The translations under genes were made by a program, and so were the position numbers. 64,000 nt of DNA from Amphiura filiformis (lineage: Eukaryota; Echinodermata; Ophiuroidea; Amphilepidida; Amphiuridae): positions 7,513,959-7,577,958 of the forward strand of contig NC_092647.1 of the NCBI RefSeq assembly GCF_039555335.1. The letters are read 5' to 3'. Shown here piece after piece: positions 19,111 through 52,639 of this stretch. Position 1 is the stretch's first letter. Each line of letters opens with the position of its first letter. A model generated the notes under the pieces. That model made no database searches. It had not been told where the DNA came from and worked only from the letters and a program-made list of their open reading frames with translations.

Positions 19111-19120
19111 CTTTGTTAAA

Positions 19121-19905: not shown

Positions 19906-19914
19906 ATCATCATA

Positions 19915-25275: not shown

Positions 25276-25287
25276 CTGTATATTTAA

Positions 25288-25690: not shown

Positions 25691-26756
25691 TTAACTCGCA
25701 GTCCATTTCGACAAGAGCAGGGTGTAACCCATGACGACTGTCCAAATCTGTTTTGATATACTTCGGACAGATATGGATTTAAGGAGGAAGTGAAATGATT
25801 CTGATATGCAGCAGGATCACTTTGGGATGTGGCACCACAATTATGTGGAAGTCGCTATACAAACCAAACAAATCCATTCGAAAGTTCACGAGAATTAATT
25901 AGGACAACCATAGGCTTATACCTTTTTATTATACCTTGATCACATGATCGCCTAATCACATAATGATCATCTTCTTGAAACAAAATTGAAAGATTATGCT
26001 TTAAAATAGCATTTGCGTCCTTCATTTGGGTGTGTGTGAAAAAAGGAAAAGCGCAACAATCCGCCATTGCCCTTGTTTCTTCCATTGAAAAATATTGCGA
26101 GAGTCATAATAATAATTGTTACACGAATGAGATAATGAAGATGTTTATCTTAACAACTCTCATCAAGATTATTGATAACCTATTTTTATGCTCTAGTTAT
26201 TTTGATCATACTAGTAGTATAAACATGGTGAAGTAAACATGTTTTAACAATTTGTTGTGCCACTCATTTACACTATACAGAACGGAACATAATGCAAAAT
26301 GTCTACAATGTAAAATGTCTATTGCTCTGATAGAAGACAAAATATATCAGGACTAAACCTTGCCATTAATTAACCTATTGCAGGAATTTGGTATATTTTT
26401 CATTTCGTAGTAAATGAATATTTTGAGTACAACAAACAAATAAACAAACAAACAAAACAACGGTAATTCTAATTCATATACAAACAAAGGCAATAAAATT
26501 TTAATTTAATCTTAATTAATTTCCGAAGCAAATATAGGATTGGAAGCAAATTAATATCTTTACAAATAGCCTACGGAAGTTAAGTGTCATGGAATACATA
26601 AAAATCATTAAGCGATTATAGTCCGACTTCTATGTTTGGTTAATCAAATTCAGCACTACAAAACGGTTTTAAAACAAAGCACCTTATATGTTCGTATACG
26701 TTTGCCAATATTTACGTTTCATTTCAAGGTGCAAAATTTTGCTCTTCTTCTTCAAG

Positions 26757-26862
26757 CCACTTCTATGTCAAATTTGAAGTTATTAAGGTTAAAACTCCCA
26801 GCACGAATGCGAAGAACCCCGCGGGTGATGACTGCGTAAATATAGCACTCTCAGAATTCTGA
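26757..26862 (+). CDS. possible terminal exon, unknown protein (copy A)
   Basis: A pyrimidine-rich acceptor (ttttgctcttcttcttcaag) precedes 34 codons and a TGA. The frame reads HFYVKFEVIKVKTPSTN, then AKNPAGDDCVNIALSEF. Another frame through the same bases is also open but highly basic and less protein-like. The region is GC-richer than its surroundings and shows no difference in copy B (39770-39875). No family recognised and no upstream donor found. Confidence 0.25.
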
Positions 26863-26938
26863 GCGATAACGTTGAGATATTCACGCGTTACCGCGTCTTC
26901 ACAGAAACTTGCCGCCTTGACAAGCAGTCACCAAATAA

Positions 26939-27385
26939 CTGCCATGGTGTCGAACTCAGCACCTCAGGGAGTTAACTTTTCAAGTTTGTCTTGATGACAC
27001 TGCGGTCGCGTATGGTGAAACACTGGCGAAAGGTGTCGATATTGTGCGCACATTTCGCTAGGAGATGCGTGCAGGGAATGTTCAATTTGATATGGTCAAA
27101 AACCTTCCCGCGTTTGTTTTATTGTTTGATATTGAAAGGCAACATTATGTCAAAATTGAAATACTTCATATGACCAAGATGCTGTTAGCTAAATTGCAGT
27201 CAATTAACACAATTGAATGTTTGGGCACACTGTACGTAATGTTTATCATTAGTCATTGGGTAGTAAATAATAGAACAATTTATCCTTTCCCGTGCGAAAA
27301 TCATAAGCAGACGACATGGCCTGCAAGTTTATTAGAAATGTATTATTTGTTACCGTATTTTAGTAATCATGTTGATTCATGTTAA
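26939..27385 (+). pseudogene. coding-like frame interrupted by one TAG, unknown product
   Basis: One frame stays open for about 149 codons except for a single TAG at 27059-27061. Before it: FQVCLDDTAVAYGETLAKG and VDIVRTFR; after it: EMRAGNVQFDMVKNLPAF and further residues to 27385. Both copies carry the TAG. Copy B also loses one A in gtcaaaaacc (near 40110), shifting the frame. It looks like a decayed gene or a chance GC-richer frame; I recognise no domain. Confidence 0.3.
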
Positions 27386-27746
27386 ATATATGTATCAAAA
27401 TTGTTTTCGGCTTTATGACAATTATTGGTCTGGTTTTTCTGCCAAAACTCTCTTGGGTTTGTCATGATTCTTGACACTAAATTTTTCTTGTATAAACTCT
27501 TAATGGTTGTGACAAATCAATGCCAAAACGAGAAGTCACTAAGACTTGCATGCACTCTTGCAAGGCGAATGATCTGTAAGTATTCATGTTGTGTATGCAA
27601 ATTCAGCCAATGTAAGATAGTCCTAGCGTACCATTTGCCAGACCTCAAAACATATTTCTGCGACACCAGGCAACATAACACTGATCGCATTATAAACAAC
27701 AAATGATGATAATAATCCGATGACACCAGTCGACAATATTCCTTAA

Positions 27747-27966
27747 AGAGGAAGCCCCGCCAGAGCAGTTCTTCTAGGGTGAACCAAACCTGCCTGGTTA
27801 TCATATTAATCAGTGACAAGGTTATCTCTGAATGTAAAAGGTGCTAAGTGATGTTTTAATTAATGTTATTGCATCAATTAGTACCAATTCAGAAATAACC
27901 TTTTAATTTTGATAACCAGGCAGGATTGGTTCACCCCAGAAGAACTGCTCTGATGGGCCTTCCTCT
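27747..27966. mobile_element. 220-bp TTAA-flanked MITE (copy A)
   Basis: Arms begin AGAGGAAG and pair over about 60 bp, including gagcagttcttct, ggttcaccc and tgataaccaggcag on the right arm. TTAA lies at 27743-27746 and 27967-27970. Ends and arm sequence differ from the MITE at 25288-25690, so this is a separate piggyBac-like family. Confidence 0.88.
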
Positions 27967-28418
27967 TTAATGCTAACCCTAACTCGTTACCATAACCTAA
28001 ACACTAATAACCGAAATACTCACCTTAAGTGGCCATTACCATAATTACCCGTAACCATAAAGCATAATTACCGTACCTTAACACCAACTTTAGCCACAAA
28101 CTCTAAGGTACCATACAATTATGGCCGTAAGGTACTATGAACCCGATATATTCGGCACCAGTGATGGCACCAGTCAATGACACTGTATGGGCGTATACAT
28201 CTGGTCGCTAACAACTGAAAGCACGTCATTAACATACCATATCCTTCTATAACATCACCTAAAGGCTGATCGTAAGGTGTATAGCCACCCCCTCCCCTAA
28301 CCTCCCTTCTCTCGTCAAAGACAAAAACGACTTTGGATACAAACATGGTATTATGTTACTCGCAGATGCCCTTACTACTGAAAGCAAGTACTTCAGTATT
28401 TGAACATTACCGTCTTAC

Positions 28419-28571
28419 ATGAAAGAAGGGATACATTATCAGATTCAAGGGGGTAAGAAAACAAACCTATTGATGATTAACAAGAAGTACATGTCAAACA
28501 TCAAAAGACCCTTACTGAAACTTGAAACTTTGGCGTTGGATGCTGTCAAGTTAGTTGAAAAGGCAAGGTAA
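28419..28571 (+). other. weak short ORF or exon candidate
   Basis: A 50-codon frame from ATG ends with KLETLALDAVKLVEKAR and overlaps a good donor (gcaag|gtaagg). In copy B a G is missing in the G5 run (near 41496), shifting the first half of the frame, so either only the part after 28490 is an exon or the frame is not coding. No family recognised. Confidence 0.15.
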
Positions 28572-29859
28572 GGTGAGAGGGGTATAGCCAACTTCATGTG
28601 AAAGAAACTTTGTTTTCATTATTACTTTTATACTTATACTAAAGTGAAAAGTTCTTCAATTTGATCAAGAGTTATTGTTATATTAATTACGACGTTATCA
28701 GCTTGTATCAAATATATCTGATAATCGTTCATTGGCATAGAACATGATTTTATTCATAAACATATCATACCAATCTTGTATGTATCACAAAGCATTCTGA
28801 ACACCTGTCAAACAGCAGACATAGAGAGAGTATAGTAAAATGTGATTCTAGTACCAGTGCCGTTATGTTAGAATGATTTGAGAATATCGACACGTATTCG
28901 CAACAGAATAAATGGTATCTTTACCATGTTTACATGGGATGCTGTACGTCAAAGGACAGAATAACTAACATCTTATATCTTGTAACATAAATACTACCTA
29001 TATTGGGTATCACTATATAATTATGTTTCGAAGAAGTCTTTCGGTCGTACCATGATCATTCGTGACAAAAAGGTTATCTCAGTTGCCACTGAAGAGCTAC
29101 AATCCAGGAAAAAGAGGTTGGAACACTTTGCCTGTCTTTTAGTATATCTCTGCCCCCGCTCCCCCAATTGAATGTTGGACCAAGCCATGATGTCAAAAGG
29201 CCCGTGAGACCCTCCAACATTGAAAGATGGGAAGTGGGGAGGGGTGCGATATAGAGGAGAGTCTGTACTTTACATATATTGCATGCATGTTTCACTCGCC
29301 TCTCCAATTTTGATAGGGCACGCATTTCAATTGTTTAGTGCAAGTGTTCCAACTTCCTGGATTGTAGTATTACTATTAATGGTACGTGTAGCAACATACT
29401 GTTTCGATATCTGTGGTAGCACAAGACTAATTTGAAAACAACTGCATTTATTTATTTACATCTCAGAAGATATTCCACCTTTGCTACAATGTATATTCCT
29501 CGATCATGGTCAACACATGGTCAAAATAGGTATTACTTGAAAAAGACTTGAGAAGAACATGAATAACTTGTGTTGCGTAAACATTACGGGAAGAATGCGT
29601 TGCGTAAACGTAGCTGAGAAGACATGAGGAACATGCATTGCGTACAGGGTTGCTAGGTCATATTGAAACACAGATGCACAGTTAAATTTTCCTCCGAATA
29701 TGGACCCAGAGTAAAGAAGAAATAAACAAAACAAACAAACGTGAGACTCGAAAGAGTACAGATGAAGACCCATGCAGACCCCTGCAGAACAATCGAAAGC
29801 TCTTATATGTGAGCTGGGAGTAAGTAATATTGATACAACTACCATGACTACAGTCTTAC

Positions 29860-29949
29860 CATTTTCAAAATTTTGTCTGGGCAGAACTCGAGCTCTGCTC
29901 TGATTTGGTCTCCTGTCAGTTGTTTCTTGGTACGCCATCGCTCATGATC
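29860..29949 (-). CDS. possible internal 30-codon exon (copy A)
   Basis: On the minus strand, acceptor cagtttatttcag, then exactly 90 bases open only in frame 0, then a donor gtaagac. The translation starts DHERWRTKKQLTGDQIRA and ends ELEFCPDKILKM, hydrophilic and charged as in a structured protein. Both other frames have early stops. Copy B (42906-42995) keeps both splice sites and the frame, with one Thr-to-Ile change. A phase 0-0 exon of this kind would add 30 residues. I do not recognise the protein. This is the best coding candidate in the window. Confidence 0.5.
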
Positions 29950-30199
29950 CTGAAATAAACTGAGAACAATATTATTTACTGCAATGAATACATATCTCTT
30001 TTGTAAGCTTTCCTTTAGTAACACGTTTGATTACACCGTTCACACCTTACATTACATCATTGTGTTCTTAGTTCTGCTAAATTAACATCGCGACACGTTC
30101 TGCTTGATGTTATTGTTAATATTTATTGGTGTTGTTGTTGTTGACCACTAGGCATAGCCCGGCAAGCCGCCACTGAGACAAACGTTAGTCATTTACAGT

Positions 30200-31530
30200 C
30201 ACAATATGGTAAAAGTTTGCATCAGTTCCACCAAGAATCTATTTCTGGTATTATTAATACTTCTGGCAACAACAAAAAAACATTTGAAAGTTGCGCAGGA
30301 TTGTGGACATTTTATGTTTCATGATAAAAGTAGTCACTTTGGTGTATGTGTAGTACATCAGGAATTATTTTATTTGTACATCTGTAAGCCGAATTTGAGA
30401 CTCTGTTGTATTCTGGCATAATGTTGGAAAAGTGCGCTAAATTTACTATCTAATTGCTTGGTGCACAGATATTGCTTGGTGGTAATCATGGTATAAATTC
30501 AGCGGAAACACTCCAAGTTGCGCAAAATTATGGACATTTTCGGTTTGGGTATGCCACAATATTGGAAAAGTGCGTTTTATTTACACCATGAAAATATTCT
30601 GATCCTCTAAAGTATCTATTTGCTTCTGGTAATTCCGCGCAGAATTATAGGTTTCAGGATGAAAGTAGTTGGCATTACATCAGGATAAATCTTTATAACC
30701 TGAAACTGAGGCAAGCGTTAGTCGGTTGCTGCCACACTCTGGAAAAAGTGTGATTTACTTACACTATATGAATCTTTCAATTCTCTAAGTACATTATTAT
30801 TTGCTTCTGGTAATTCTGCGGAGTTATAGACATTTTAGGTTTCAGGAAAAATGTATTCGGTTTGGCGATGAAGGGCCTTAAAAGCAGGAAAGGTTTTTAT
30901 AATCCAAAACTTACACTATTGCTGCCACAATGTTGGAAAAGTGTGTTGTATTAACAGTATGATTTTTTCGATTCTCTAAGTATCTATATTTTGATTTCTG
31001 GTAATTCACGTAATTCCGGAAACACTCCAAAGTTGGGCACAACTATCATGACTATAGACATTTTTAAAAGGTTTCAGGATAAATGTAGTCGGTTTGGCAA
31101 AATGCATTAATATATCAGGAAAATTGCTATAAACCGAAACTAAGGCCGGTGTTGGTCGGTTGCTGCCACTTATAATATTGGAAAAGTGTGATTTATTTAC
31201 ACTGATATGCATCTACCTGATTCGCTAAGTATTTGCTTCTTGTAATTCCGCGGAAACACTCCAAAATTGCGCAGAATTATAGACATTTTAGGTTTCAGGA
31301 TAAATGTAGTCGGATTGGCATATTTGAAATGGTCTAGAAGTAGGAAAAGTTTTTATAAGCCGAAACTTATACGGTTGCTGCCACAATGTTGATAAACTGC
31401 GTTTTATTCACATTATAAATATATTTGATCCTCTATTCTGGGAATCCACGGAAATATTACAAAATATTACACAGAATCATAGTCATATATAGCAGGTTTC
31501 AGTATAAAAGTAATCGGTTTGGGGAAAGAG
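30200..31530. repeat. degenerate tandem repeat, unit about 125-230 bp, ~7 copies (copy A)
   Basis: Words recur in the same order: gcgcagaattatagacattt, ggtttcaggataaatgtagt, cggtttggc, ggttgctgccacaatgttgg, aaaagtg.gttttatttac and gcttctggtaattccg. Copies of the gcgcag word lie near 30295, 30515, 30637, 30818, 31035, 31267 and 31468. The units are strongly diverged, so this is an old array. No ORF runs through it. Confidence 0.8.
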
Positions 31531-33084
31531 AAAGCTTTTACATTAAGTGTAGCCATTTGAATAGCGACCCGTGACCTTCAACGATTTCAGATACATCGGT
31601 ATAAGAATGATATTGAATTTAGTACATATAAAGGCATACTACGATTCGCTCTATAGTCACATCACGAGGATTCATAAAAATATTGTGAGTCTTCTATTCT
31701 TGGTAAGGACTGATTGGTACTCGTTTAGACATAATTATTCATTATTTCAGCTGAATGTAGATATCAACGCTTATCTGACCAGTAACACTATGGACCACAA
31801 TGGCCTCATCCCAATGGCATAGTTCAATAATCTCAATTAAACAATCATAGTACACAATTTGACCTCAAGTTTCAGAGTATGAGTTTTTGTACCCCAAATT
31901 TTCAAAGGTCATTCAATGAATGTGCAAATGTAATGGGGTTAAAGAACTGTGGCCTTAAAAACACTGTACTCTCCGTGCGTTGTGGAGAGGTACATTGAAG
32001 ATCATCCTTAAGATATAAATAATGGCAAGAGTCCGGACAGGCATGACAGGCAAACAATTCCTCTTCACTGTTCGAGAATTGGTGAAGAGAACAAAATATA
32101 TCCAGTTACAGATGACGATAAAGGTTTTTTTTGTTATGTTTGTTGGTTGGTAAATTCTGTACTGTACCCTGCCTTGGGTCTTTGCGATGTAATGGGTACT
32201 TCTGTCTCGGAGAGTAGAAACATTGAAAAGTTGTGAGCATATTGAAAGGAAACGATCGGAGTGTAAACTGGTAAGAAAATAGAACACCACACGAAGTACA
32301 ACATCAGTTTTAGCAATAATAACAAGAAAGACAACTGATCTCATTTCAACGGTCATGAAAAGGCGGTTTGTTTGCACTTTTATTCGGTAACTTTGGTTCC
32401 TTAATCATCGGTTACTCTGACATGTGGTTTATTGGGTTTTTTTTTATTTTACTGTGTTGTAGCACAGTTGTAGAACACATTGCCTTATTGTGACTCAAAC
32501 TGAATAACTTTTTATTACCGAATGGAAGTTGATGAGGTTGATGCTCTGTTTTGACAACTAATTCATAAGGAAATATCCACTAGTTTGACAAAATAACATT
32601 TATATTAATAAACCAAGTTTTGTATTGAAATAATACCAATGAATAATGAGGCCATCTTGTAATATTTAAAAGCGGTCCGGTAGTATATTTAATTATAATA
32701 AAAATTTCAGCTTAATTAGTGGACATACCGGTAATAGTATAAGATCTATAAAGCTCAAACGATAAAATAATCGACAAAATTATGATTCACTAATAATTAT
32801 GCATCAATTTATCATCGGTCCCTTGTATGATAATGATTTCGTGTATTTTGACCAATATATGAAAGTACAGATACCTGTTACCATTAGTTATACTTTAGGC
32901 TACACAATAAGTGATTAGTCCTTTATTAAGATACTAGTATTACAGTTTTGGTGATTTCGAGCATGTTGAAGTACAATGACTTATTTTAAAAGTAAATTTT
33001 ACTGTTTAGATCTCAAATAATATTATAAGTCGATAGTCCAAGTGGTCATTAATAGTCAACAAACCCAATATCTAAGTTTAAACC

Positions 33085-33290
33085 ACAATCCTTACCCTAA
33101 CCTAACCCTAAACTTCACCCTAACCTATAGCAAAAACCCTAATCATAACCCTAATCTTAACCCTTAAACCTAACCCTGACTCTAATCTTAAATCTGACTA
33201 TATCACTATTAGCATACCCTAGCCAAACTTATCCCTGGCCCTAATCCTAACATAAAATGTCATAAACCCTGATTTTAACCCTTATTGGAC
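33085..33290. repeat. degenerate CCCTAA-like simple repeat (copy A)
   Basis: About 200 bp rich in ccctaa, ccctaac and taatcctaac words with irregular spacing, grading into unique DNA. It resembles a decayed CCTAA-type minisatellite or interstitial telomere-like DNA. Only short runs match the perfect hexamer, so a true telomere origin is not established. A weaker stretch of the same type lies at 27970-28120. Confidence 0.7.
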
Positions 33291-34234
33291 TAATATCCTT
33301 CGGACCGTAATGGCTGTTCTAAATAATTAACGAAATGCATAATTATGTTTCGTTTACCTTCGAAGCTAAAATGACGCAAATTATACAACATATTTTGTTT
33401 CCTGAATTTCATAGACATGAACATCTACACAATCTCCGTGCAAGATGTACCCACCACAAACAATAGCCAACGAAACACACAAGTCGACAGGGGCGAGAAT
33501 CTAAATTCGGCACTGCAGTCCATGTAATTTTCGAATATCCAAATTAGCTAAAATGTATATCTACACCTTATAATCAATATTAATCTTCAAGACATTTATA
33601 GCGCTGATGAAATGATATAATATTGCAGAAAACTACACCATGGTAAATGCATTTGCAGCAAAGTCTTCAAGACGAATAACGATCTATTATTAGATAATCC
33701 ATTTAATTTCGGAACTTGTTTAAATTTGCATAATTTATGCAGATTGGCCAGTATATTTTAATCCATAATCTCAAGGACATTTACATGACATAAACTATTC
33801 CCTCGTGCAGGCAGTAACCGAGATAGAATATAATAAATGACCGGCAAAAAACCTACAACAAATGAGCTTAAGTTTACGAGAAGAAGAACGATCTATCTTA
33901 TCCCAACCCATGTAATTTTAAAACTGTCATTATTAGCTTGGAGGCCTGAGACTTTGCCATATGAAGTAAGTGTAATAATCACGTCCATAGATTAACACGT
34001 CTTATGACTTTGTGTCCCAATGGCGATCATAATTATGGGTAAAACCGAGGCCCACGATTAACTATATCATGGCGGGTATGATAGTTGAGCGAGTTTTTCA
34101 AAGATGAATTGAAGAACTCGCTATATAGGGTGTATCTTTCCTCACTATATGTGAAAGTAATATACATACACTTAAAACTGTAAGAAGACTGAATTCTAGC
34201 TATTTGACTCTATAGAGAGGAGTGCAATTCAATA

Positions 34235-34394
34235 TACAGTTTGTCCACTCTGAAGTACAAAGTGACAACGCTAGCGTATACAGCGCGTAAACAGTGCGCA
34301 GTGCTGCGTCTCTGCTGAGGTATGCGTGCCTTCAAAGTCGGCACAATGTGTGCGTCCGCGTCGGTACTTTGTACTTCAGATTAGATTGACTGTA
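34235..34394. mobile_element. 160-bp MITE, TACAGT ends (copy A)
   Basis: Terminal TACAGT/ACTGTA, then paired blocks ctgaagtacaaagt and actttgtacttcag, around a GC-richer centre (cgcgtaaacagtgcgcagtg). No ORF. The same element is at 47302-47461 in copy B. Confidence 0.75.
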
Positions 34395-35018
34395 GTGAAA
34401 TGGCAAAGTTGGAATGTAATGAACTCTTTTCACATTGAAAGTAAAATTCATTCTCAAATGTCATGAAATAGTAATATTTGACTTAATCGAATATCTTTAT
34501 GGGGGTAACAAAGAATATGCACAAAATATTTGATGAACGATCTTGCCAGCTTTCCTGTCGATAACTAACATGTTCTGCTATTAGGTTGGTTGTCTGATAC
34601 GTGTCTAGTACAAACTAAGATTGATTGTATTTCTTTCCTTTAATCCTCCTTAGCAAACACGATTGTGTAAAAGCTGATGACATAAATATATTTTGGTCCC
34701 GCCTACCTTATTTTTATTTGTATCTACTGATGAATGCATGTCACAAATCCAATGATTAAGTACGTCTTATGTCGGCATAAAATATTAGCATTTGTCACGA
34801 AGCTTGACGTGCAATTTGTGTAAATAATTATTACGAAATGTAATGATACAGTTAACAAATCAATTATTGTACAGATGAAAGTCAATTAAAAAGAATATAT
34901 ACAGACACCCCACCAACACCACACCCACATATACACACATATATGTTGCGAGAAAATATAAATAAAATGAAATATCTTCACATACAAAATACCCTTTTTC
35001 ACCAATATTTAGGGATGA

Positions 35019-35053
35019 CTTCAAACCCATCCCCCGGCGGTTTGGGTTTGAAG
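35019..35053. repeat. 11-bp-stem hairpin (copy A)
   Basis: Arms cttcaaaccca and tgggtttgaag around a 13-nt C/G-rich centre. In copy B one arm base differs (tgagtttgaag near 48108), which breaks one pair, so pairing is not strictly conserved. Confidence 0.6.
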
Positions 35054-35295
35054 CAAGCCATTACAAAACTAGCATTAATATAAACTGTAGAAAATTAGTG
35101 TATACATCTTTTTATTTGAGATAAACTCTTAATCTGATGACCTGGTTATTCCACGCCTTGTAACAAATTAATGTTAATTCCCCGCCAATTATTAACATAC
35201 CCCCTTTTCATGTTTTTCGCATATCCATAAACACTAATAAATTGATATTCTTGACATCTAGTTTATCATCTGATATCTATAGATAGTAAAAAATA

Positions 35296-36756
35296 CTGAA
35301 TGATAAGCAGTTTGGTTTTCGAAACAACCATTCTACATACATGGCAATAACACAACTAGTTGATCAGATTAATTATGCCGTTGAAAGAAATGAAACCACA
35401 ATCGGAATATTTTTAAACCTATCCAAAGCCTTTGACACTATTGGCCATAACATATTAATTCATAAATTGGAACACCATATGGTTTTCGTGGTATCGTACT
35501 TGAGTGGTTCACTAATTATCTAAGCAACAGAAAACAATATGTATATTACAACTCGTGTGAATCAGAACTTAAAGATATTATTTGCGGTGTACCTCAAGGT
35601 TCTATACTGGGTCCCTTATTATTCATTCTTGATGTAAACGATATTATCAACACATCTGATGTATTAGACTTATATTATTCGCAGATGATACTACTATACT
35701 GTACTCACATAAAGATGTTGAAAGTAAATATTAATTAATTAATAATGAGTTGAAAGAAATTAGTAACCGGTCAAACAAATTATCGGTAAATGCAATTAAA
35801 ACAAATTACATGGGTACACCACATATGGCATCAAAAAAATGGAACAAAAGAACTTAAACTCAAATATGTGTGATGTATCTCCTGGGATAATCTTAGATGG
35901 GAAAGTTCTGGAACGGGTTACTAATACAAAATTCCAGGGTGTAATTATTGATGAATGTTTGACGTGGAAATACCATAATATACTGCATATCAAAAACCAT
36001 CTCGCGAAATATTGGAGTTATGAACAAAATCAAATTTTATGTACCTGGTCGTATTCTGTATTATTGTACTCTTGTTTTACCTTATTCAAATTATGGAATA
36101 TTGATTTGGGGGGTACGTGTAAAACATACTTAGATAAAATTATGAAATTACAGAAATGGGCTGTGAGGACAATAGCAAATAGTCATTATTCAAGCCATAC
36201 TGCTCCCTTATTTACCAAATACAATATTTTAACTCTTGCCGACACCTACAAACTTGAATTGGGGGTATTTATGTACAAGTACAGTAATACTGAATTACAG
36301 GGTGTATTGGATGATTTCTTTGTACTTTCCAATATTCATAATTACCAAACGAGAAACGCTAGTAAATTCTACTTAATGAAGAACAATAAAACATTTACTG
36401 ACCATGTTCGTACTACTGGTCCAATATTATGGAATTCATTGCCAAACCCAAAAAACAGCAAATTCAGTGAAACATTTCCGAAAAATATATAAACGTGACT
36501 TGATCTCAAAATATGATTAATTCTTGAGCATTGTGTTTCTCGTTTGTTCTGTTTGTTTGTTTTTATTTCTTTGATGGTAACATTTCTTTGTTAAAGGGTG
36601 TAACTCCCTCTGGCCTTACTGGCCTTCTGGTCATCCCCTCCATAATTCGTTGTTGTTTATTTGTTTTTTTAAATAGATACTTATATTTATATTTGATTAT
36701 TATGTGACTTGTTGTGAATTATGGGAAATAAATTATCTTGTATCTTGTATCTTGTT
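35296..36756 (+). mobile_element. 5'-truncated LINE, RT and C-terminus (copy A)
   Basis: Begins at the RT motif KQFGFRNNHST, then NLSKAFDTIGHNIL, CGVPQGSILGPLLFIL, a FADDT box in a shifted frame, thumb/linker sequence, and a C-terminal frame at 35839-36492 with MKLQKWAVRTIANSHYSSHT and GPILWNSLP. The 3' end carries a (TTGTATC)n tail ending at 36756. Frameshifts include a missing T before the catalytic FADD. Motifs fit a jockey/CR1-like element different from that at 880-2325. Confidence 0.92.
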
Positions 36757-36925
36757 TGACTTTGTGGTACATTATTCAACAATAATGTTAATTTTACCAC
36801 TTTCAATTTGTTTCCATTTGCATAATACCCTTTGAAGTTTCCCGGTTCAATTACCATGAATACACTACACTGTGGCTCTAGCGTCACTGAACTCCATGCA
36901 CTGTAGCAAATAAACACCCCTTGAT

Positions 36926-37240
36926 AAATTTGGTGACTAATTTTGCATTTTTCTTAAAAAAATAACTACACACTGATAACAAAAGTTATGTATATTATAG
37001 GGGCAAGGAATCCAATTACTTCATTTGAATTTCAGTGGTTCAAGACAAGTGGTTCATTATATATGTTAAGCAATGAGGTACATTCTAGAGGTACCTCTTT
37101 TCTTATCATAAATAAAGTACTTGTATTGAGTCACTGAAATTCCAGTGTAGTAACTAGATTCCTTGCCCCTATAATATACATAACTTTTGTTACCAGTGTA
37201 TATATATTTTTGAGAAAAATGCAAAAATAGTCACAAATTT
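36926..37240. mobile_element. foldback element with ~100-bp arms (copy A)
   Basis: The arms share tttgcatttttct, aacaaaagttatgtatat and tataggggcaaggaatc with their reverse complements on the right. Between them are shorter paired blocks such as cactgaaattccagtg. No coding frame. The left end differs between the two copies of the segment by an indel, so the exact boundary is uncertain. Confidence 0.75.
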
Positions 37241-37989
37241 AACCATACATTTAATTGTGATTTTTTTAGAATATAACAAGTGCCCAAAGCTTGTTCCACA
37301 AATTAAATTCATTCTAGATATAAAAAAAATCAATAAAAAACGAGAACTAGAGCATCGTTAGTTAACTGACCAGCATAAGAATATCCTCTATATTAACTAC
37401 CCTTAAACAATCCAAAAATACTGTGGGAAATAGTCATGAACAGTTATGATCATTATTCGCTGGTTTTATCTCTCTGTTATGCTGATGAATCGCAGTTTGC
37501 TATTATACAGCTGACCAATAATTATGGACCGTTTTGCATTTTTATTGAGCAATTTAGTCAGAAATTTTAATGGAATATTGTAATTGAAGCAATTACATGA
37601 TAATATAGTGGGATGCTTTCTCCGAGCCAATAACGTGATATGCTAAACCTAGTTACTCTTTCAGGTATTATAGTAAAAACATGAAAAATTTGACACGTCT
37701 AAGTATAGATGAAAAAACAGCCTCTTAAAATTCAGTAAGATGGAAATTCCATGAATGTAAAGTACAACAATAATATACTTCCTAAATTAACAAAGGAAAT
37801 ACTTTCAACGACCAGACATTTTGCTCTTGTCAAATATTTCATTACCTTGCCATTTTTTGTCACAAACTTAATAACTAATTATTTGTCAGCACACCATAAG
37901 AGGATACCAATTGTTTTAAACTATTGTTATTCTGAGCACAAATTTATAAATAGTAGCTGTATTATGCTTATGGATTGACATGTGTGCGT

Positions 37990-38476
37990 TCTGCTTAAAC
38001 TTTTCAAGTTGTTGTCGATCATTGGCCACAGCTCTAGAGCACGGGCGTTGTCCGCAACAATTGTCTTCGCATATTTTCCCAAGTAATGTTCATTGTCCAC
38101 AACTCTAAAGTAACACACATCGACCACATGCAACGACTGCAGAGTAACGATCATTAGCCACAAATCTAGAGCAACGCACATTGTCCGCAACTCTAGAGAA
38201 ATCTTCATTGTCCAGCTCTAGGGTTATGAACACTGTCCGTAACTCTAGAGTAACAAGCATTGTCCACAGCTCTAGAGTAAACACATTGACCACAACTAAC
38301 TGTAGAGTAATCATCATTGTCTACATATCTCTAGAGCATTGTTGTAGAGCAGCGCACATTGTCCGCAACTCTAGAGTAATATTCATTTTCCACAGCTCTA
38401 GATAATGCACATTGTCCGTAACTCTAGAGTAACGCGCATTGGCCATAGCTGTAGAATAGCGCATATTGTCCGCAAC
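37990..38476. repeat. ~26-27-bp CTCTAGAG tandem array, truncated by gap (copy A)
   Basis: Units of the type cattgtccacaactctagag followed by a variable taacga segment recur every 25-28 bp. Each unit is centred on the palindrome CTCTAGAG. The contig ends inside the array at the N gap, a common reason for assembly breaks. Long open frames here are by-products of the unit length being near a multiple of three. Confidence 0.92.
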
Positions 38477-39769: not shown

Positions 39770-39875
39770 CCACTTCTATGTCAAATTTGAAGTTATTAAG
39801 GTTAAAACTCCCAGCACGAATGCGAAGAACCCCGCGGGTGATGACTGCGTAAATATAGCACTCTCAGAATTCTGA
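39770..39875 (+). CDS. possible terminal exon, unknown protein (copy B)
   Basis: Counterpart of 26757-26862, with the same acceptor, frame and TGA, and no sequence difference that I see. The same doubts apply. Confidence 0.25.
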
Positions 39876-40793
39876 GCGATAACGTTGAGATATTCACGCG
39901 TTACCGCGTCTTCACAGAAACTTGCCGCCTTGACAAGCAGTCACCAAATAACTGCCATGGTGTCGAACTCAGCACCTCAGGGAGTTAACTTTTCAAGTTT
40001 GTCTTGATGACACTGCGGTCGCGTATGGTGAAACACTGGCGAAAGGTGTCGATATTGTGCGCACATTTCGCTAGGAGATGCGTGCAGGGAATGTTCAATT
40101 TGATATGGTCAAAACCTTCCCGCGTTTGTTTTATTGTTTGATATTGAAAGGCAACATTATGTCAAAATTGAAATACTTCATATGACCAAGATGCTGTTAG
40201 CTAAATTGCAGTCAATTAACACAATTGAATGTTTGGGCACACTGTACGTAATGTTTATCATTAGTCATTGGGTAGTAAATAATAGAACAATTTATCCTTT
40301 CCCGTGCGAAAATCATAAGCAGACGACATTGCCTGCAAGTTTATTAGAAATGTATTATTTGTTACCGTATTTTAGTAATCATGTTGATTCATGTTAAATA
40401 TATGTATCAAAATTGTTTTCGGCTTTATGACAATTATTGGTCTGGTTTTTCTGCCAAAACTCTCTTGGGTTTGTCATGATTCTTGACACTAAATTCTTCT
40501 TGTATAAACTCTTAATGGTTGTGACAGATCAATGCCAAAACGAGAAGTCACTAAGACTTGCATGCACTCTTGCAAGGCGAATGATCTGCGAATGACTCTG
40601 CACTCTTGCAAGGCGAATGATCTGTATTTCATGTTGTGTATGCAAATTCAGCGAATGTAAGGTAGTCCTAGCGTACCATTTGCCAGTCCTGAGAACATAT
40701 TTCTGCGACACCAGGCAACATAACACTGATCGCATTATAAACAACAAATGATGATAATAATCCGATGACACCAGTCGACAATATTCAGCTTAA

Positions 40794-41011
40794 AGAGGAA
40801 GCCCCGCCAGAGCAGTTCTTCTAGGGTGAACCAAACCTGCCTGGTTATCAAATTAATCAGTGACAAGGTTATCTCTGAATGTAAAGGTGCTAAGTGATGT
40901 TTTAATTAATGTTATTGCATCAATTAGTACCAATTCAGAAATAACCTTTTAATTTTGATAACCAGGCAGGATTGGTTCACCCAGAAGAACTGCTCTGATG
41001 GGCCTTCCTCT
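40794..41011. mobile_element. TTAA-flanked MITE (copy B)
   Basis: Counterpart of 27747-27966 with TTAA at 40790-40793 and 41012-41015. The left flank differs (attcagc instead of attcc) by a small indel next to the target site. Confidence 0.88.
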
Positions 41012-42905
41012 TTAATGCTAACCCTAACTCGTTACCATAACCTAAACACTAATAACCGAAATACTCACCTTAAGTGGCCATTACCATAATTACCCGTAAC
41101 CATAAAGCATAATTACCGTACCTTAACACCAACTTTAGCCACAAACTCTAAGGTACCATACAATTATGGCCGTAAGGTACAATGAACCCGATATATTCGG
41201 CACCAGTGATGGCACCAGTCAATGACACTGTATGGGCGTATACATCTGGTCGCTAACAACTGAAAGCACGTCATTAACATACCATATCCTTCTATAACAT
41301 CACCTAAAGGCTGATCGTAAGGTGTATAGCCATCCCCCTCCCCTAACCTCCCTTCCCTCGTCAAAGACAAAAACGACTTTGGATACAAACATGGTATTAT
41401 GTTACTCGCAGATGCCCTTACTACTGAAAGCAAGTACTTCAGTATTTGAACATTACCGTCTTACATGAAAGAAGGGATACATTATCAGATTCAAGGGGTA
41501 AGAAAAAAAACCTATTGATGATTAACAACAAGTACATGTCAAACATCAAAAGACCCTTACTGAAACTTGAAACTTTGGCGTTGGATGCTGTCAAGTTAGT
41601 TGAAAAGGCAAGGTAAGGTGAGAGGGTATAGCCAACTTCATGTGAAAGAAACTTTGTTTTCATTATTACTTTTATACTTATACTAAAGTGAAAAGTTCTT
41701 CAATTTGATCAAGAGTTATTGTTATATTAATTACGACGTTATCAGCTTGTATCAAATCTATCTGATAATCGTTCATTGGCATAGAACATGATTTTATTCA
41801 TAAACATATCATACCAATCTTGTATGTATCATAAAGCATTCTGAACACCTGTCAAACAGCAGACATAGAGAGAGTATAGTAAAATGTGATTCTAGTACCA
41901 GTGCCGTTATGTTAGAATGATTTGAGAATATCGACACGTATTCGCAACAGAATAAATGGTATCTTTACCATGATTACATGGGATGCTGTACGTCAAAGGA
42001 CAGAATAACTAACATCTTATATCTTGTAACATAAATTCTACCTATATTGGGTATCACTATATAATTATGTTTCGAAGAAGTCTTTCGGTCGTACCATGAT
42101 CATTCGTGACAAAAAGGTTATCTCAGTTGCCACTGAAGAGCTACAATCCAGGAAAAAGAGGTTGGAACACTTTGCCTGTCTTTTAGTATATCTCTGCCCC
42201 TGCTCCCCCAATTGAATGTTGGACCAAGCCATGATGTCAAGAGGCCCGTGAGACCCTCCAACATTGAAAGATGGTGGGGAGGGTGAGATATAGAGGAGAG
42301 TCTGTACTTTACATATATTGCATGCATGTTTCACTCGCCTCTCCAATTTTGATAGGGCACGCATTTCAATTGTTTAGTGCAAGTGTTCCAACTATTTATT
42401 TCCTGGATTGTAGTATTACTATTAATGGTACGTGTAGCAACATACTGTTTCGATATCTGTGGTAGCACAAGACTAATTTGAAAACAACTGCATTTATTTA
42501 TTTACATCTCAGAAGATATTCCACCTTTGCTACAATGTATATTCCTCGATCATGGTCAACACATGGTCAAAATAGGTAGTACTGGAAAGAGACTTGAGAA
42601 GAACATGAATAACTTGTGTTGCGTAAACATTACGGGAAGAATGCGTTGCGTAAACGTAGCTGAGAAGACATGAGGAACATGCATTGCGTACAGGGTTGCT
42701 AGGTCATATTGAAACACAGATGCACAGTTAAATTTTCCTCCGAATATGGACCCAGAGTAAAGAAGAAATAAACAAAACAAACAAACGTAAGACTCGAAAG
42801 AGTACAGATGAAGACCCATGCAGACCCCTGCAGAACAATCGAAAGCTCTTATATGTGAGCTGGGAGTAAGTAATATTGATACAACTATCATGACTACAGT
42901 CTTAC

Positions 42906-42995
42906 CATTTTCAAAATTTTGTCTGGGCAGAACTCGAGCTCTGCTCTGATTTGGTCTCCTATCAGTTGTTTCTTGGTACGCCATCGCTCATGATC
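42906..42995 (-). CDS. possible internal 30-codon exon (copy B)
   Basis: Counterpart of 29860-29949. Acceptor, donor and the 90-base open frame are all kept. The one difference that I see changes ACA to ATA (Thr to Ile). Confidence 0.5.
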
Positions 42996-43249
42996 CTGAA
43001 ATAAACTGAGAACAATATTATTTACTGCAATGAATACATATCTCTTTTGTAAGCTTTCCTTTAGTAACACGTTTGATTACACCGTTCACACCTTACATTA
43101 CATCATTGTGTTCTTAGTTCTGCTAAATTAACATCGCGACACGTTCTGCTTGATGTTATTGTTAATATTTATTGGTGTTGTTGTTGTTGACCACTAGGCA
43201 TAACTCGGCAAGCCGCCACTGAGACAAACGTTAGTCATTTACAGTCACA

Positions 43250-44590
43250 ATGTGGTAAAAGTTTGCATCAGTTCCACCAAGAATCTATTTCTTGTATTAT
43301 TAATACTTCTGTCAACAACTAAAAAAACATTTGAAAGTTGCGCAGGATTATGGACATTTTATGTTTCATGATAAAAGTAGTCACTTTGGTGTATGTGTAG
43401 TACATCAGGAATTATTTTATTTGTACATCTGTAAGCCGAATTTGAGACTCTGTTGTATTCTGGCATAATGTTGGAAAAGTGCGCTAAATTTACTATCTAA
43501 TTGCTTGGTGCACAGATATTGCTTGGTGGTAATCATGGTATAAATTCAGCGGAAACACTCCAAGTTGCGCAAAATTATGGACATTTTCGGTTTGGGTATG
43601 CCACAATATTGGAAAAGTGCGTTTTATTTACACCATGAAAATATTCTGATCCTCTAAAGTATCTATTTGCTTCTGGTAATTCCGCGCAGAATTATAGGTT
43701 TCAGGATGAAAGTAGTTGGCATTACATCAGGATAAATCTTTATAACCTGAAACTGAGGCAAGCGTTAGTCGGTTGCTGCCAAACTCTGGAAAAAGTGTGA
43801 TTTACTTACACTATATGAATCTTTCAATTCTCTAAGTACATTATTATTTGCTTCTGGTAATTCTGCGGAGTTATAGACATTTTAGGTTTCACGATAAATG
43901 TATTCGGTTTGGCGATGAAGGGCCTTAAAAGCAGGAAAGGTTTTTATAATCCAAAACTTATACTATTGCTGGCACAATGTTGGAAAAGTGTGTTTTTTAC
44001 AGTATGATATTTTCGATTCTCTAAGTATCTATATTTTGATTTCTGGTAATTCACGTAATTCCGGAAACACTCCAAAGTTGTGGCACAACTATCATGACTA
44101 TAGACATTTTTAAAAGGTTTCAGGATAAATGTAGTCGGTTTGGCAAAATGCAATATATCAGGAAAATTGCTATAAACCGAAACTAAGGCCGGTGTTGGTC
44201 GGTTGCTGCCACTTATAATATTGGAAAAGTGTGATTTATTTACAATGATGTGAATCTACCTGATTCACTAAGTATTTGCTTCTTGTAATTCCGCGGAAAC
44301 ACTCCAAAGTTGCGCAGAATTATAGACATTTTAGGTTTCAGGATAAATGTAGTCGGTTTGGCTTATTTGAAATGGTCTAGAAGTAGGAAAAAGTTTTTAT
44401 AAGCCGAAACTTATACGGTTGCTGCCACAATGTTGATAAACTGCGTTTTATTCACATTATAAATATATTTGATCCTCTATTCTGGGAATCCACGGAAATA
44501 TTACAAAATATTACACAGAATCATAGTAGCAGGTTTCAGTATAAAAGTAATCGGTTTGGGGAAAGAGAAAGCTTTTACATTAAGTGTAGC
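43250..44590. repeat. degenerate ~200-bp tandem repeat (copy B)
   Basis: Counterpart of 30200-31530 with the same unit order. Small indels differ between copies, for example the stretch tgcattaatatatcagg in A against tgcaatatatcagg in B. Confidence 0.8.
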
Positions 44591-46144
44591 CATTTGAATA
44601 GCGACCCGTGACCTTCAACAAATTCAGATACATCGGTATAGAATGATAATTGAATTTAGTACATAAAAGGCATACTACATACTGCATTCGCTCTATAGTC
44701 ATCAGAGATTCATAAAAATATTTTGAGTATTCTATTCTTGGTAAGGACTGATTGGTACTCGTTTAGACATGATTATTTTATTTCAGCTGAATGTAGATAT
44801 CAACACTTATCTGACCAGTAACACTATGGACCACAATGGCCTCATCCCAATGGCATAGTTCATCTCAATTAAACAATCATAGTGCACAATTTGACCTCAA
44901 GTTTCAGAGTATGAGTTTTTGTACCCAAATTTTCAAAGGTCATTCAATGAATGTGCAAATGTAATGGGGTTAAAGAACTGTGCCCTTATAGATATGCATG
45001 TTGTGGATCCTAGTGTAACAAATTACACACTGTACTCTCTGTCCGTTGTGGAGAGGGCCATTGAAGATCATCCTTAAGATATAATCATGGCAAGAGTCCG
45101 GACAGGCATGACAGGCAAACAATTACTCTTCACTGTTCGAGAATTGGTGAAGAGAACAAAATATATCCAGTTACAGATGACGATAAAGGTTTTTTTTGTT
45201 ATGTTTGTTGGTTGGTAAATTCTGTACTGTACCCTGCCTTGGGTCTTTGCGATGTAATGGGTACTTCTGTCTCGGCGAGTAGAAACATTGAAAAGTTGTG
45301 AGCATATTGAAAAGAAAAGATCGGAGTGTAAACTGGTAAGAAAATAGAACACCACACGAAGTACAACATCAGTTTTAGCAATTGGTAACAAGAAAGATAA
45401 CTGATCTCATTTAAACGGTCATGAAAAGGCGGTTTGTTTGCACTTTTATTCGTTAACTTTGGTTCCTTAATCATCGGTTACTCTGACATGTGGTTTATTG
45501 GGTTTTTTTATTTTACTGTGTTGTAGCACAGTTGTAGAACACATTGCCTTATTGTGACTCAAACTGAATAATTTTTATTACCGAATGGAAGTTGATGAGG
45601 TTGATGCTCTGTTTTGACAACTAATTCATAAGGAAATATCCACTAGTTTGACAAAATAACATTTATATTAATAAACCAAGTTTTGTATTGAAATAATACC
45701 AATGAATAATGAGGCCATCTTGTAATATTTAAAAGCGGTCCGGTAGTATATTTAATTATAATATAAATTTCAGCTTAATTAGTGGACATACCGGTAATAG
45801 TATAAGATCTATAAAGCTCAAACGATAAAATAATCGACAAAATTATGATTCACTAATAATTATGCATCAATTCATCATCGGTCCCTTGTATGATAATGAT
45901 TTCGTGTATTTTGACCAGTATATGAAAGTACAGAATAATACCTGTTACCATTAGTTATACTTTAGGCTAAACGATTAGTGATTAGTCCTTTATTAAGATA
46001 TTTTTAGTATTACAGTTTAGTGATTTCGAGCATGTTGAAGTCAATGACTTATTTTAAAAGTAAATTTTACTGTTTAGATCTCAAATAATATTATAGTCGA
46101 TAGTCCAAGTGGTCATTAATAGTCAACAAAAACCAATATCTAAG

Positions 46145-46350
46145 TTTAAACCACAATCCTTATCCTAATCCTAACCCTAAACTTCACCCTAACCTATAGC
46201 AAAAACCCTAATCATAACCTAATCTTAACCCATAAACCTAACCCTGACTCTAATCTTAAATCTGACTATATCACTATTAGCATACCCTAGCCAAATTTAT
46301 CCCTAGCCCTAATCCTAACATAAAATGTCATAAACCCTGATTTTAACCCT
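46145..46350. repeat. degenerate CCCTAA-like simple repeat (copy B)
   Basis: Counterpart of 33085-33290, with a few base and length differences. Confidence 0.7.
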
Positions 46351-47301
46351 TTTGGACTAATATCCTCGGACCGTAATGGCTGTTCTAAATAATTAACGAA
46401 ATGCATAATTATGTTTCGTTTACCTTCGAAGCTAAAATGACGCAAATTATACAACATATTTTGTTTCCTGAATTTCATAGACATGAACATCTACACAATC
46501 TCCGTGCAAGATGTACCCACTACAAACAATAACCAACGAAACACAACACGCAAGTCGACAGGGCGAGAATCTAAATTCGGCACTGCAGTCCATGTAATTT
46601 TCGAATATCCAAATTAGCTAAAATGTATATCTACACCTTATAATCAATATTAATCTTCAAGACATTTATAGCGCTGATGAAATGATATAATATTGCAGAA
46701 AACTACACCATGGTAAATGCATTTGCAGCAAAGTCTTCAAGACGAATAACGATCTATTATTAGATAATCCATTTAATTTCGGAACTTGTTTAAATTTGCA
46801 TAATTTATGCAGATTGGCCAGTATATTTTAATCCATAATCTCAAGGACATTTACATGACATAAACTATTCCCTCGTGCAGGCAGTAACCGAGATAGAATA
46901 TAATAAATATGACCGGCAAAAACCTAAAACAATGAGCTTAAGTTTACGAGAAGAAGAACGATCTATCTTATCCCAACCCATGTAATTTTAAAACTGTCAT
47001 TATTAGCTTGGAGGCCTGAGACTTTGCCATATGAAGTAAGTGTAATAATCACGTCCATAGATTAACACGTCTTATGACTTTGTGTCCCAATGGCGATCAT
47101 AATTATGGGTAAAACCGAGGCCCACGATTAACTATATCATGGCGGGTATGATAGTTGAGTTTTTCAAAGATGGATTGAAGAACTCGCTATATATAGGGTG
47201 TATCTTTCCTCACTATATGTGAAATAATATAGATACACTTAAAACTGTAAGAAGACTGAATTCTAGCTATTTGACTCTATAGAGAGGAGTGCATTTCAAT
47301 A

Positions 47302-47461
47302 TACAGTTTGTCCACTCTGAAGTACAAAGTGACAACGCTAGCGTATACAGCGCGTAAACAGTGCGCAGTGCTGCGTCTCTGCTGAGGTATGCGTGCCTTC
47401 AAAGTCGGCACAATGTGTGCGTCCGCGTCGGTACTTTGTACTTCAGATTAGATTGACTGTA
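47302..47461. mobile_element. 160-bp MITE, TACAGT ends (copy B)
   Basis: Counterpart of 34235-34394, the same length with the same paired arms. Confidence 0.75.
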
Positions 47462-48355
47462 GTGAAATGGCAAAGTTGGAATGTAATGAACTCTTTTCAC
47501 ATTGAAAGTAAAATTCATTCTCAAATGTCATGAAATAGTAATATTTGACTTAATCGAATATCTTATGGGGATAACAAAGAATATGCACAAAATATTTGAT
47601 GAACGATCTTGCCAGCTTTCCTGTCGATAACTAACATTTTCTGCTATTAGGTTGGTTGTCTGATACGTGTCTAGTACAAACTAAGATTGATTGTATTTCT
47701 TTCCTTTAATCCTCCTTAGCAAACACGATTGTGTAAAAGCTAATGACATAAATATATTTTTAGTCCCGCCTACCTTATTTTTATTTGTATCTACTGATGA
47801 ATGCATGTCACAAATCCAATGATTAAGTACGTCTTATGTCGGCATAAAATATTAGCATTTGTCACGAAGCTTGACGTGCAATTTGTGTAAATAATTATTA
47901 CGAAATGTAATGATACAGTTAACAAATCAATTATTGTACAGATGAAAGTCAATTAAAAAGAATATATACAGACACCCCACCAACACCACACCCACATATA
48001 CACACATATATGTTGCGAGAAAATATATATAAAATGAAATATCTTCACATACAAAATACCCTTTTTCACAAATATTTAGGGATGACTTCAAACCCATCCG
48101 CCGGCGGTTTGAGTTTGAAGCAAGCCATTACAAAACTAGCATTAATATAAACTGTAGAAAATTAGTGTATACATCTTTTTATTTGAGATAAACTGATGAC
48201 CTGGTTATTCCACGCCTTGTAACAAATTAATGTTAATTCCCCACCAATTATTAACATACCCCCTTTTCATGTTTTTCGCATATCCATAAACACTAATAAA
48301 TTGATATTCTTGACATCTAGTTTATCATCTGATATCTATAGATAGTAAAAAATAC

Positions 48356-49813
48356 TGAATGATAAGCAGTTTGGTTTTCGAAACAACCATTCTACATACA
48401 TGGCAATAACACAACTAGTTGATCAGATTAATTATGCCGTTGAAAGAAATGAAACCACAATCGGAATATTTTTAAACCTATCCAAAGCCTTTGACACTAT
48501 TGGCCATAACATATTAATTCATAAATTGGAACACCATATGGTTTTCGTGGTATCGTACTTGAGTGGTTCACTAATTATCTAAGCAACAGAAAACAATATG
48601 TATATTACAACTCGTGTGAATCAGAACTTAAAGATATTATTTGCGGTACCTCAAGGTTCTATACTGGGTCCCCTATTATTCATTCTCTCTGTAAACGATA
48701 TTATCAACACATCTGATGTATTAGACTTTATATTATTCGCAGATGATACAACTATACTGTACTCACATAAAGATGTTGAAAGTAAATATCAATTAATTAA
48801 TAATGAGTTGAAAGAAATTAGTAACTGGTCAAACAAATTATCGGTAAATGCAATTAAAACAAATTACATGGGTACACCACATATGGCATCAAAAAATGGA
48901 ACAAACATAACTTAAACTCAAATATGTGTGATGTATCTCCTGGGATAATCTTAGATGGGAAAGTTCTGAACGGGTTACTAATACAATATTCCAGGGTGTA
49001 ATTATTGATGAATGTTTGACGTGGAAATACCATAATATACTCCATATCAAAAACCATCTCGCGAAATATTGGAGTTATGAACAAAATCAATTTTATGTAC
49101 CTGATCGTATTCTGTATTATTGTACTCTTGTTTTACCTTATTCAAATTATGGAATATTGATTTGGGGGTACGTGTAAAACATACTTAGATAAAATTATGA
49201 AATTACAGAAATGGGCTGTGAGGACAATAGCAAATAGTCATTATAGAAGCCATACTGCTCCCTTATTTACCAAATACAATATTTTAACTCTTGCCGACAC
49301 CTACAAACTTGAATTGGGGGTATTTATGTACAAGTACAGTAATACTGAATTACAGGGTGTATTGGATGATTTCTTTGTACTTTCCAATATTCATAATTAC
49401 CAAACGAGAAACGCTAGTAAACTCAACTTAATGAAGAACAATAAAACATTTACTGACCATGTTCGTACTGCTGGTCCAATATTATGGAATTCATTGCCAA
49501 ACCCAAAAAAAGCAACCAATTCAGTGAAACATTTCCGAAAAATTTAAAACGTAGAATTTAAATCTCAAAATATGATTAATTCTTGAGCATTGTGTTTCTC
49601 GTTTGTTTTGTTTGTTTGTTTTTATTTCTTAGTTGGTAACATTTCTTTGTTAAAGGGGGGGGGGGGGACTTCCTCTGGCCTTACTGGCCTTCTGGTCATC
49701 CCCTCCATAATTCATTGTTGTTTATTTGTTTATTAAAATAGATACTTATATTTATATTTGATTATTATGTGACTTGTTGTGAATTATGGGAAATAAATTA
49801 TCTTGTATCTTGT
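48356..49813 (+). mobile_element. 5'-truncated LINE, RT and C-terminus (copy B)
   Basis: Counterpart of 35296-36756. Here the frame from VPQGSILGPLLFIL to the FADDT box is open (48598-48915), where copy A is shifted. Two bases are lost just before VPQGS, where copy A is intact. The C-terminal frame is at 49197-49547. The 3' TTGTATC tail is shorter by about one unit. Both copies are inactive. Confidence 0.92.
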
Positions 49814-49999
49814 TTGACTTTGTGGTACATTATTCAACAACCTGGGTAATGTTAATTTTACCACTTTCAATTTGTTTCCATTTGCATAATACCCTTTGAA
49901 GTTTCCCGGTTCAATTACCATGAATACACTACACTGTGGCTCTAGCGTCACTGAACTCCATGCACTGTAGCAAATATTCACTTTGAATTTGTGACTCTG

Positions 50000-50330
50000 T
50001 AAGGTGGTACTACACCCCTGATAAATTTTTGTCAAAAAATAACTACACACTAATATCAAAAGTTATGTATATTATAGGAGCAAGGAATTACTTCACTGAA
50101 ATTTCAGTGGTTCAAGACAAGTGGTTCATTATATATTAAGAAATGAGGTACATTCAATAGGTATCTATTTTATTATCATAAATAACGTACCGCTTGTCTT
50201 CAGTCACTGAAATTCCAGTGTAGTAACTAGATTCCTTGCCTCTATAATATACATAACTTTTTGTTACCAGTGTATATATTTTTGAGAAAAATGCAAAAAT
50301 AGTCACAAATTTATCAAATTTAATCGCACT
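50000..50330. mobile_element. foldback element (copy B)
   Basis: Counterpart of 36926-37240. This copy has extra left-flank sequence (gtaaggtggtactacaccc) and lacks the tttgcatttttctt word of the left arm, so one of the two copies has a deletion. Confidence 0.65.
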
Positions 50331-51079
50331 AAAACCACATTTAATTGTGATTTTTTAGAATATAACAAGTACACAAAGCTTGTTTCACAAATTAAATTCA
50401 TTCTAGATATAAAAAAATTCAATAAAAACTAGAACTAGAGCATCGTTAGTTAATTGACCAGCATAAGAATATCCTCTATATTAACTACCCTTAAACAATC
50501 CAAAAAAAACTGTGGGAAATAGTCATGAACAGTTATGATCATTATTCGCTGGTTTATCTCTCTGTTATGCTGATGAATCGCAGTTTGCTATTATACAGCT
50601 GACCAATAATTATGGGCCGTTTTGCATTTTTATTGATCAATTTAGTCAGAAATTTTAATGGAATATTGTAATTGAAGCAATTACATGATAATATAGTGGG
50701 ATGCTTTCTCCGAGCCAATAACGTGATATGCTAAACCTAGTTACTCTTTCAGGTATTATAGTAAAACATGAAAAATTTGACACGTCTAAGTATAGATGAA
50801 AAACAGCCTCTTAAAATTCAGTAAGATGGAAATTCCATGAATGTAAAGTACAACAATAATATACTTCCTAAATTAACAAAGGAAATACTTTCAACGACCA
50901 GACATTTTGCTCTTGTCAAATATTTCATTACCTTGCCATTTTTTGTCACAAACTTAATAACTAATTAATTATTTGTCAGCACACCATAAGAGGATAACAA
51001 TTGTTTTAAACTATTGTTATTCTGAGCACAAATTTATAAATAGTAGCTGTATTATGCTTATGGATTGACATGTGTGCGT

Positions 51080-52480
51080 TCTGCTTAAACTTTTCAAGTT
51101 GTTGTCGATCATTGGCCACAGCTCTAGAGCACGGGCGTTGTCCGCAACAATTGTCTTCGCATATTTTCCCAAGTAATGTTCATTGTCCACAACTCTAAAG
51201 TAACACACATCGACCACATGCAACGACTGCAGAGTAACGATCATTAGCCACAAATCTAGAGCAACGCACATTGTCCGCAACTCTAGAGAAATCTTCATTG
51301 TCCAGCTCTAGGGTTATGAACACTGTCCGTAACTCTAGAGTAACAAGCATTGTCCACAGCTCTAGAGTAAACACATTGACCACAACTAACTGTAGAGTAA
51401 TCATCATTGTCTACATATCTCTAGAGCATTGTTGTAGAGCAGCACATTGTCCGCAACTCTAGAGTAATATTCATTTTCCACAGCTCGAGGGTAATGAACA
51501 TTGTCCGTAACTCTAGAGTAACGCGCATTGGCCATAGCTGGAGAATAGCGCATATTGTCCGCAAGCTCTAGAGTAACGACATTGACCGCTCTAGACAGCT
51601 AATTGTCTGTACTTTAGGTAATCATCATTGTCTACATCTCAAGAATAGAGCATTTGTCCGCAAATGTAGAGAGTAACGACCATTGTCCACAACTCTGGAG
51701 TAATATTCATTTAATAAATCCATTAGCTCTAGATAGGTGAAAACACAACATGTCCGCTAACTCTAGATTGAACTAATCATTGTGCCATATCTGCAATCAT
51801 AGATTGAACATACTTGTCTTTTCAAAGATACTCATCTTACAGGTGCAAGTGATCAGCGACCATTCAATCCACCGCTCTAAGTATCAGCGCAGATATGTCG
51901 ACAACTTTCACCTAGGGTAATGATAATTATAACTACATCTCAAACTGAATATTGCATTGTCTACATTGTCCGCAAATGTAGAGTAACGACCATTGTCCAC
52001 AGCTCTGGGGTATCGCGTATTGTCAGCAACTGTAGAGTATTGATCATTGTCTACAGTTTGTCTGCAACTCTGGAGCAACGACCATTGTCCACAGCTCTGG
52101 GGTATCGCGTATTGTCAGCAACTGTAGAGTATTGATCATTGTCTACAGTTTGTCTGCAACTCTAGTGTAACGATCATTGTTCTCAGCTCTAGGGGAACAC
52201 ACAGTGTCCGTAACTCTAGAGTAAAGAGCATTGTACACTTCCATAGAGCAGCACATACGGTATTGTCCTAAACTCGAGAGTAATGAACATCAGCTCTAGA
52301 GAAGCTCTAAAGTCATGAAAGTAGTCTGATACTCTAGAATAGTGATCATTGTCTACAGTCTGTTTGTCTACAACTCTAGAGTAACGAACGATCATTGTTC
52401 ACAGCTTTACAGTAAGTCACATTATACGCTACTCTCGAGTTATGGATAATAGTCCATCCTTGAGAGCCACGATTTCGAGT
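51080..52480. repeat. ~26-27-bp CTCTAGAG tandem array (copy B, full length)
   Basis: About fifty diverged units of the cattgtccacagctctagagtaacgat type. Near 52005-52155 a longer stretch (acgaccattgtccacagctc through tgtctgcaactct) repeats, indicating local higher-order duplication. The CTCTAGAG centre is the best-kept part. Confidence 0.9.
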
Positions 52481-52639
52481 ATGAAACAATTGCAATATAA
52501 TTTCACAGGTATACAATCGTGAACAAAGACAAGAGGTACGGCTATGTTTCTTAAGATGTGGGTGATGTGCGTTCCACTACAGTTAGGATAAACAGTCTGA
52601 TTTCCAAGTCGCGTGCAATTTACATTTACCATGTTTACG

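Follow-up and report, generated by a model that had tools for sequence, protein, structure and literature searches.

A 12.8-kb same-orientation duplication across a 200-N scaffold gap, very probably two haplotypes of one locus

Results

The window (the whole 64-kb stretch of DNA analysed here) contains a single run of N, exactly 200 long, at 38477-38676, and closely similar sequences lie on its two sides. The final 12.8 kb of the contig to the left (contig 1, whose right end is copy A at 25693-38476, plus strand, proposed haplotype 1) are collinear with, and in the same orientation as, the initial 12.9 kb of the contig to the right (contig 2, whose left end is copy B at 38677-51565, plus strand, proposed haplotype 2). 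Copy A aligns end to end with 38677-51565, and BLAST of the window against itself recovered the match in three same-strand pieces, 25693-27576 with 38677-40588 (97.8% identity), 27551-31957 with 40599-44988 (97.6%) and 31961-38475 with 45027-51564 (96.1%). A global alignment of the two copies spans 12,977 columns with 12,454 matches (96.0%, gaps counted), and includes 242 substitutions among 12,696 aligned bases (1.9%) as well as 77 indel events that comprise 281 bases in total, the longest of 35 bp and 40 of them affecting a single base. Local identity is lower in places, being 90.5% over 36300-37700 and 94.2% over the first 501 bases of B. One of the larger differences, a 33-bp insertion at 40595-40627 of B that A lacks, represents a candidate heterozygous indel marker; judging from a repeated peptide in the overlapping open reading frame, it is apparently a local tandem duplication.

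The copies share 9,072 21-mers (12,751 in A and 12,848 in B), as opposed to none in the five comparisons of A or B with the left flank (12.8 kb before A) or the right flank (12.4 kb after B) and of the flanks with each other, and the match is therefore not due to chance. Similarly, BLAST of 20000-25692 and 52400-60000 returned no match within A or B, except for the last two bases of the right arm of a foldback element, which ends at 25694. The only similarity of the right flank to the copies is contributed by minisatellite units at 51566-52400, which are 66-79% identical to units in A and B as detected by BLAST. Self-BLAST, global alignment and shared 21-mers thus confirm the 12.8-kb duplication across the 200-N gap that a preliminary description of this DNA had reported. 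Its further claim, that the homology is bounded by both contig ends, holds to within one base: the first base of B (38677) pairs with 25693, and the final match joins 38475 to 51564, beyond which the last base of A (38476, C) mismatches 51565 (G). The overlap consequently ends 0 bp from the start of B and 1 bp from the end of A.

Repeats are found at both of these ends. A foldback or MITE-like element without assigned strand occupies 25284-25694, with a 403-bp interior (25288-25690) between TTAA motifs at 25284-25287 and 25691-25694, which resemble a piggyBac-type target-site duplication. Its inverted arms pair 25284-25357 with 25621-25694 (91%) and 25360-25444 with 25535-25619 (89% complementary), and the first base of contig 2 corresponds to position three of the right-hand TTAA. 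At least some eight distinct foldback-like loci are present in the window, among the best 25 of 51 pairs together with BLAST, with a few more if the counterparts in B are considered separately. Among the pairs listed, roughly 80-110 of the 64,000 positions (0.1-0.2%, a rough and post hoc figure) lie within 2 bp of a foldback edge, and the coincidence of such an edge with the start of B points to the repeat as the reason for the contig end. Contig 1 in turn stops inside a plus-strand minisatellite at 38091-38476, the units of which measure about 27 bp (core CTCTAGAG / CATTGTCC). Tandem Repeats Finder delineated 38141-38476, and BLAST among the units extended the array to 38091. The corresponding region of B, 51181-52440 on the plus strand, comprises the counterpart of the part present in A, followed by about 0.9 kb of degenerate units past the end of A. 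The foldback and the minisatellite are plausible stopping places for an assembly, and we infer that both of them stopped this one.

The differences between the copies are unevenly distributed. Substitutions amount to 1.04% over 25693-31192, 2.10% over 31193-36192, 6.3% over 36193-37260 and 1.24% over 37261-38476, and the most divergent patch coincides with a second foldback with inverted arms (36922-37245, no assigned strand). Within 36901-37260, 43 of 351 aligned bases (12%) are substituted, with indels and an alignment that appears partly misaligned; leaving out this interval yields 199 substitutions in 12,345 bases (1.6%), and leaving out all of 36193-37260 yields 176 in 11,644 (1.5%). Substitution counts taken in 500-bp bins (25 in all) have a variance-to-mean ratio of 8.3, whereas 5,000 random placements averaged 1.0 and never exceeded 2.35. 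For 25693-36192 by itself the observed ratio is 4.1, the placement control referring to the full length only. The longest identical run of 579 columns was attained in 0.04% of 5,000 uniform placements. Blocks of unequal age are expected for two alleles of a recombining population. The earlier reading of the substitutions and small indels as allelic divergence is supported by the rate, which is allele-like, by the patchiness and by the indels, none of which exceeds 35 bp.

Transitions and transversions number 108 and 134, a ratio of 0.81 that is low for simple SNPs and counts against an allelic reading. Misalignment at 36193-37260 was considered as the cause and rejected, as the ratio is 0.81 (79:97) also outside this stretch. 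That the copies differ by an inversion at 36922-37245, where A matches B in reverse at 80%, was likewise rejected, because the element is itself a foldback, 83% identical to its own reverse in A and 76% in B.

To assess the coding content, Pfam was searched with six-frame translations, stops being written as X, of 1-10700, 10700-25692, copy A (25693-38476) and 51565-64000, 24 translations in all. The sole family found was RVT_1, in three of the 24. In copy A it marks a decayed reverse transcriptase fragment on the plus strand at 35275-36489, with a counterpart in B at about 48349-49544 and broken open reading frames in both; the domain match itself (PF00078, approximately 35275-35502, E 7.9e-6) scores 26.2 bits, below the curated cut-off of 29.6. 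Six-frame scanning detected no other Pfam domain in copy A, a search that would miss domainless or very short exons, and no match at E 0.01 in the right flank (51565-64000) or in 10700-25692. Nor did the Pfam scans of A and the flanks recover a gene that spans the duplication and whose exon order could expose a false copy. In the whole window, Rfam at gathering thresholds gave three tRNA matches, all outside the duplicated part, in agreement with ARAGORN. As far as Pfam tells from copy A, the doubled sequence would be mainly repeat and intergenic DNA, and gene copy number appears unaffected to the extent detectable. As to the two-fold inflation of gene counts anticipated in the preliminary description, no doubled gene was detected by Pfam in copy A or by Rfam and ARAGORN. 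Copy A also includes a degenerate CCTAACCCTAAA-like tract at 33081-33177, which resembles an interstitial telomere-type repeat.

Several further features were observed in the flanks. Two minus-strand tRNA-Gln (TTG) genes, at 608-680 and 3287-3359, lie within a repeated stretch (539-706 and 3208-3385, 88% alike) that has microsatellites of 4- and 8-bp units nearby and may represent a tRNA-carrying repeat family. Between them, on the minus strand at 1555-2285, a decayed retrotransposon shows a frame-broken RVT_1 that scores 27.0 bits in one frame and 67.6 bits in another, the remaining frames of 1-10700 being devoid of Pfam matches. A satellite array at 10853-12546 consists of about 37 copies of a 46-bp unit (95% matches) and also shows a less pronounced periodicity of 23 bp (72%). 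Some parts of the array are complementary to others at about 70%, and it could therefore fold on itself. To the right of the copies, a 168-bp unit is repeated in about 1.9 tandem copies at 54387-54698 (97% alike), and a long foldback-like inverted repeat is located at 58327-59543, with arms of about 260-276 bp that are 87-88% alike and a spacer of about 680 bp.

Discussion

The overlap runs end to end and is exact to one base, the copies diverge, a gap parts them, and a repeat is present at each contig end. Taking these features together, copies A and B are very probably two alleles (haplotypes) of one locus of about 12.8 kb. Congruent with the preliminary description, an unmerged haplotype overlap between neighbouring contigs is supported by the end-bounded homology, the 200-N gap, the allele-like divergence and the lack of any further copy of the unit in the flanks compared. 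In the sequence of events that we propose, contig 1 would carry one haplotype up to the minisatellite and break there, while contig 2 would carry the other haplotype leftward to the foldback edge and break at that point. Owing to allelic divergence, the overlap would have escaped merging by the assembler or during purging, and the two contigs would then have been scaffolded next to each other across a placeholder of 200 N. The true locus would accordingly be about 13 kb shorter, by one copy and the N. In one assembly scaffolded with YaHS, gaps are marked by 200 N each (PMC12134992), and the gap length is thus probably a placeholder of arbitrary size also in this case; the use of YaHS for the present scaffold is no more than a guess.

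The preliminary description had further argued that the two breakpoints of a real tandem duplication would not be expected to fall exactly at contig ends. This is too strong, as a gap inside a larger repeated unit bounds the homology likewise. A genuine tandem duplication of more than 12.8 kb, perhaps specific to one haplotype, bounded by the foldback transposon and the minisatellite and with its junction lost in the gap, is nonetheless unlikely. If its unit measured 12.8 kb or more and the gap hid the end of the first copy and the start of the second, a real duplication could show this end-to-end arrangement too; the repeats at the contig ends could explain an unassembled junction, and gene conversion between real paralogues could imitate the patchy identity. 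Such a duplication requires, however, missing sequence at the gap, of which there is no sign, and a junction or unit boundary inside a contig was not found, the homology stopping only at the two contig ends. Moreover, copies 2% apart are easily distinguished by accurate long reads. Ko et al. (PMC9516828) tie gaps between copies to false rather than true duplications, and we consider a real duplication of this kind quite improbable. The two alleles are favoured on account of such priors from the literature and the lack of a unit boundary inside either contig.

Allele-like divergence is also what a heterozygous tandem duplication, present on one haplotype only and partly assembled, would lead one to expect, and allele-specific tandem duplication is mentioned by Ko et al. 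(PMC9516828). Their case, however, sat within one contig, and no observation at this locus requires three copies, rendering this arrangement very improbable. The differences could finally be sequencing errors, one haplotype having been assembled twice (a homotype false duplication). Congruent with such errors, 25 of the 40 single-base indels, themselves the larger part of the 77 events, fall in homopolymers of at least 3, and the transition-to-transversion ratio is low for true SNPs. Yet 242 clustered substitutions and several indels of 10-35 bp are unlike the errors expected in consensus contigs, and we give this explanation hardly any credence.

The A/B pair is then most likely an assembly artefact and not new biology. 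The region 25693-51565 should be treated as one locus when repeats, duplications or copy-number changes are counted, and, if the copies are alleles, the 242 substitutions and 77 indels represent candidate heterozygous sites instead of paralogue divergence. Homology that starts and stops at a run of N moreover provides a check that needs no reads and is usable across any assembly.

The class of error is already known, and the pair represents a worked example of it. Duplicated overlapping contigs (DOC) were described as a class of mis-assembly by Kelley & Salzberg 2010 (PMC2864568), with criteria of an identity above 95% over an alignment longer than 300 bp, closeness to contig ends, adjacent placement and mate pairs consistent with merging. 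At the present locus the alignment extends over 12.8 kb at 96.1-97.8% in the BLAST pieces and 96.0% globally, and the contigs are parted by a lone 200-N run; the layout agrees with the alignment criteria of DOC. As in DOC, adjacent contigs in the same orientation match at high identity at their facing ends only, whereas the sequence farther out is unique; unlike the pair reported here, those of Kelley & Salzberg were confirmed by mate pairs (PMC2864568).

According to Ko et al. 2022 (PMC9516828), false duplications are marked by half read depth, by an assembly gap that separates the copies, by discordant read pairs and by one-copy k-mers, and the gap property was not found for true duplications. 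The 200 N between A and B on one scaffold correspond to the inter-copy gap of a heterotype false duplication, and the pair resembles that type in its gap-separated copies on a single scaffold and its haplotype-like divergence, the gap being the one mark assessed at this locus. For purge_dups, Guan et al. 2020 (PMC7203741) describe how overlaps between homologous chromosomes are retained among primary contigs in outbred species, with most insects and marine animals as examples. The A/B pair is similar to this target of purge_dups, a heterozygous overlap between contigs that has been kept in the primary assembly (PMC7203741).
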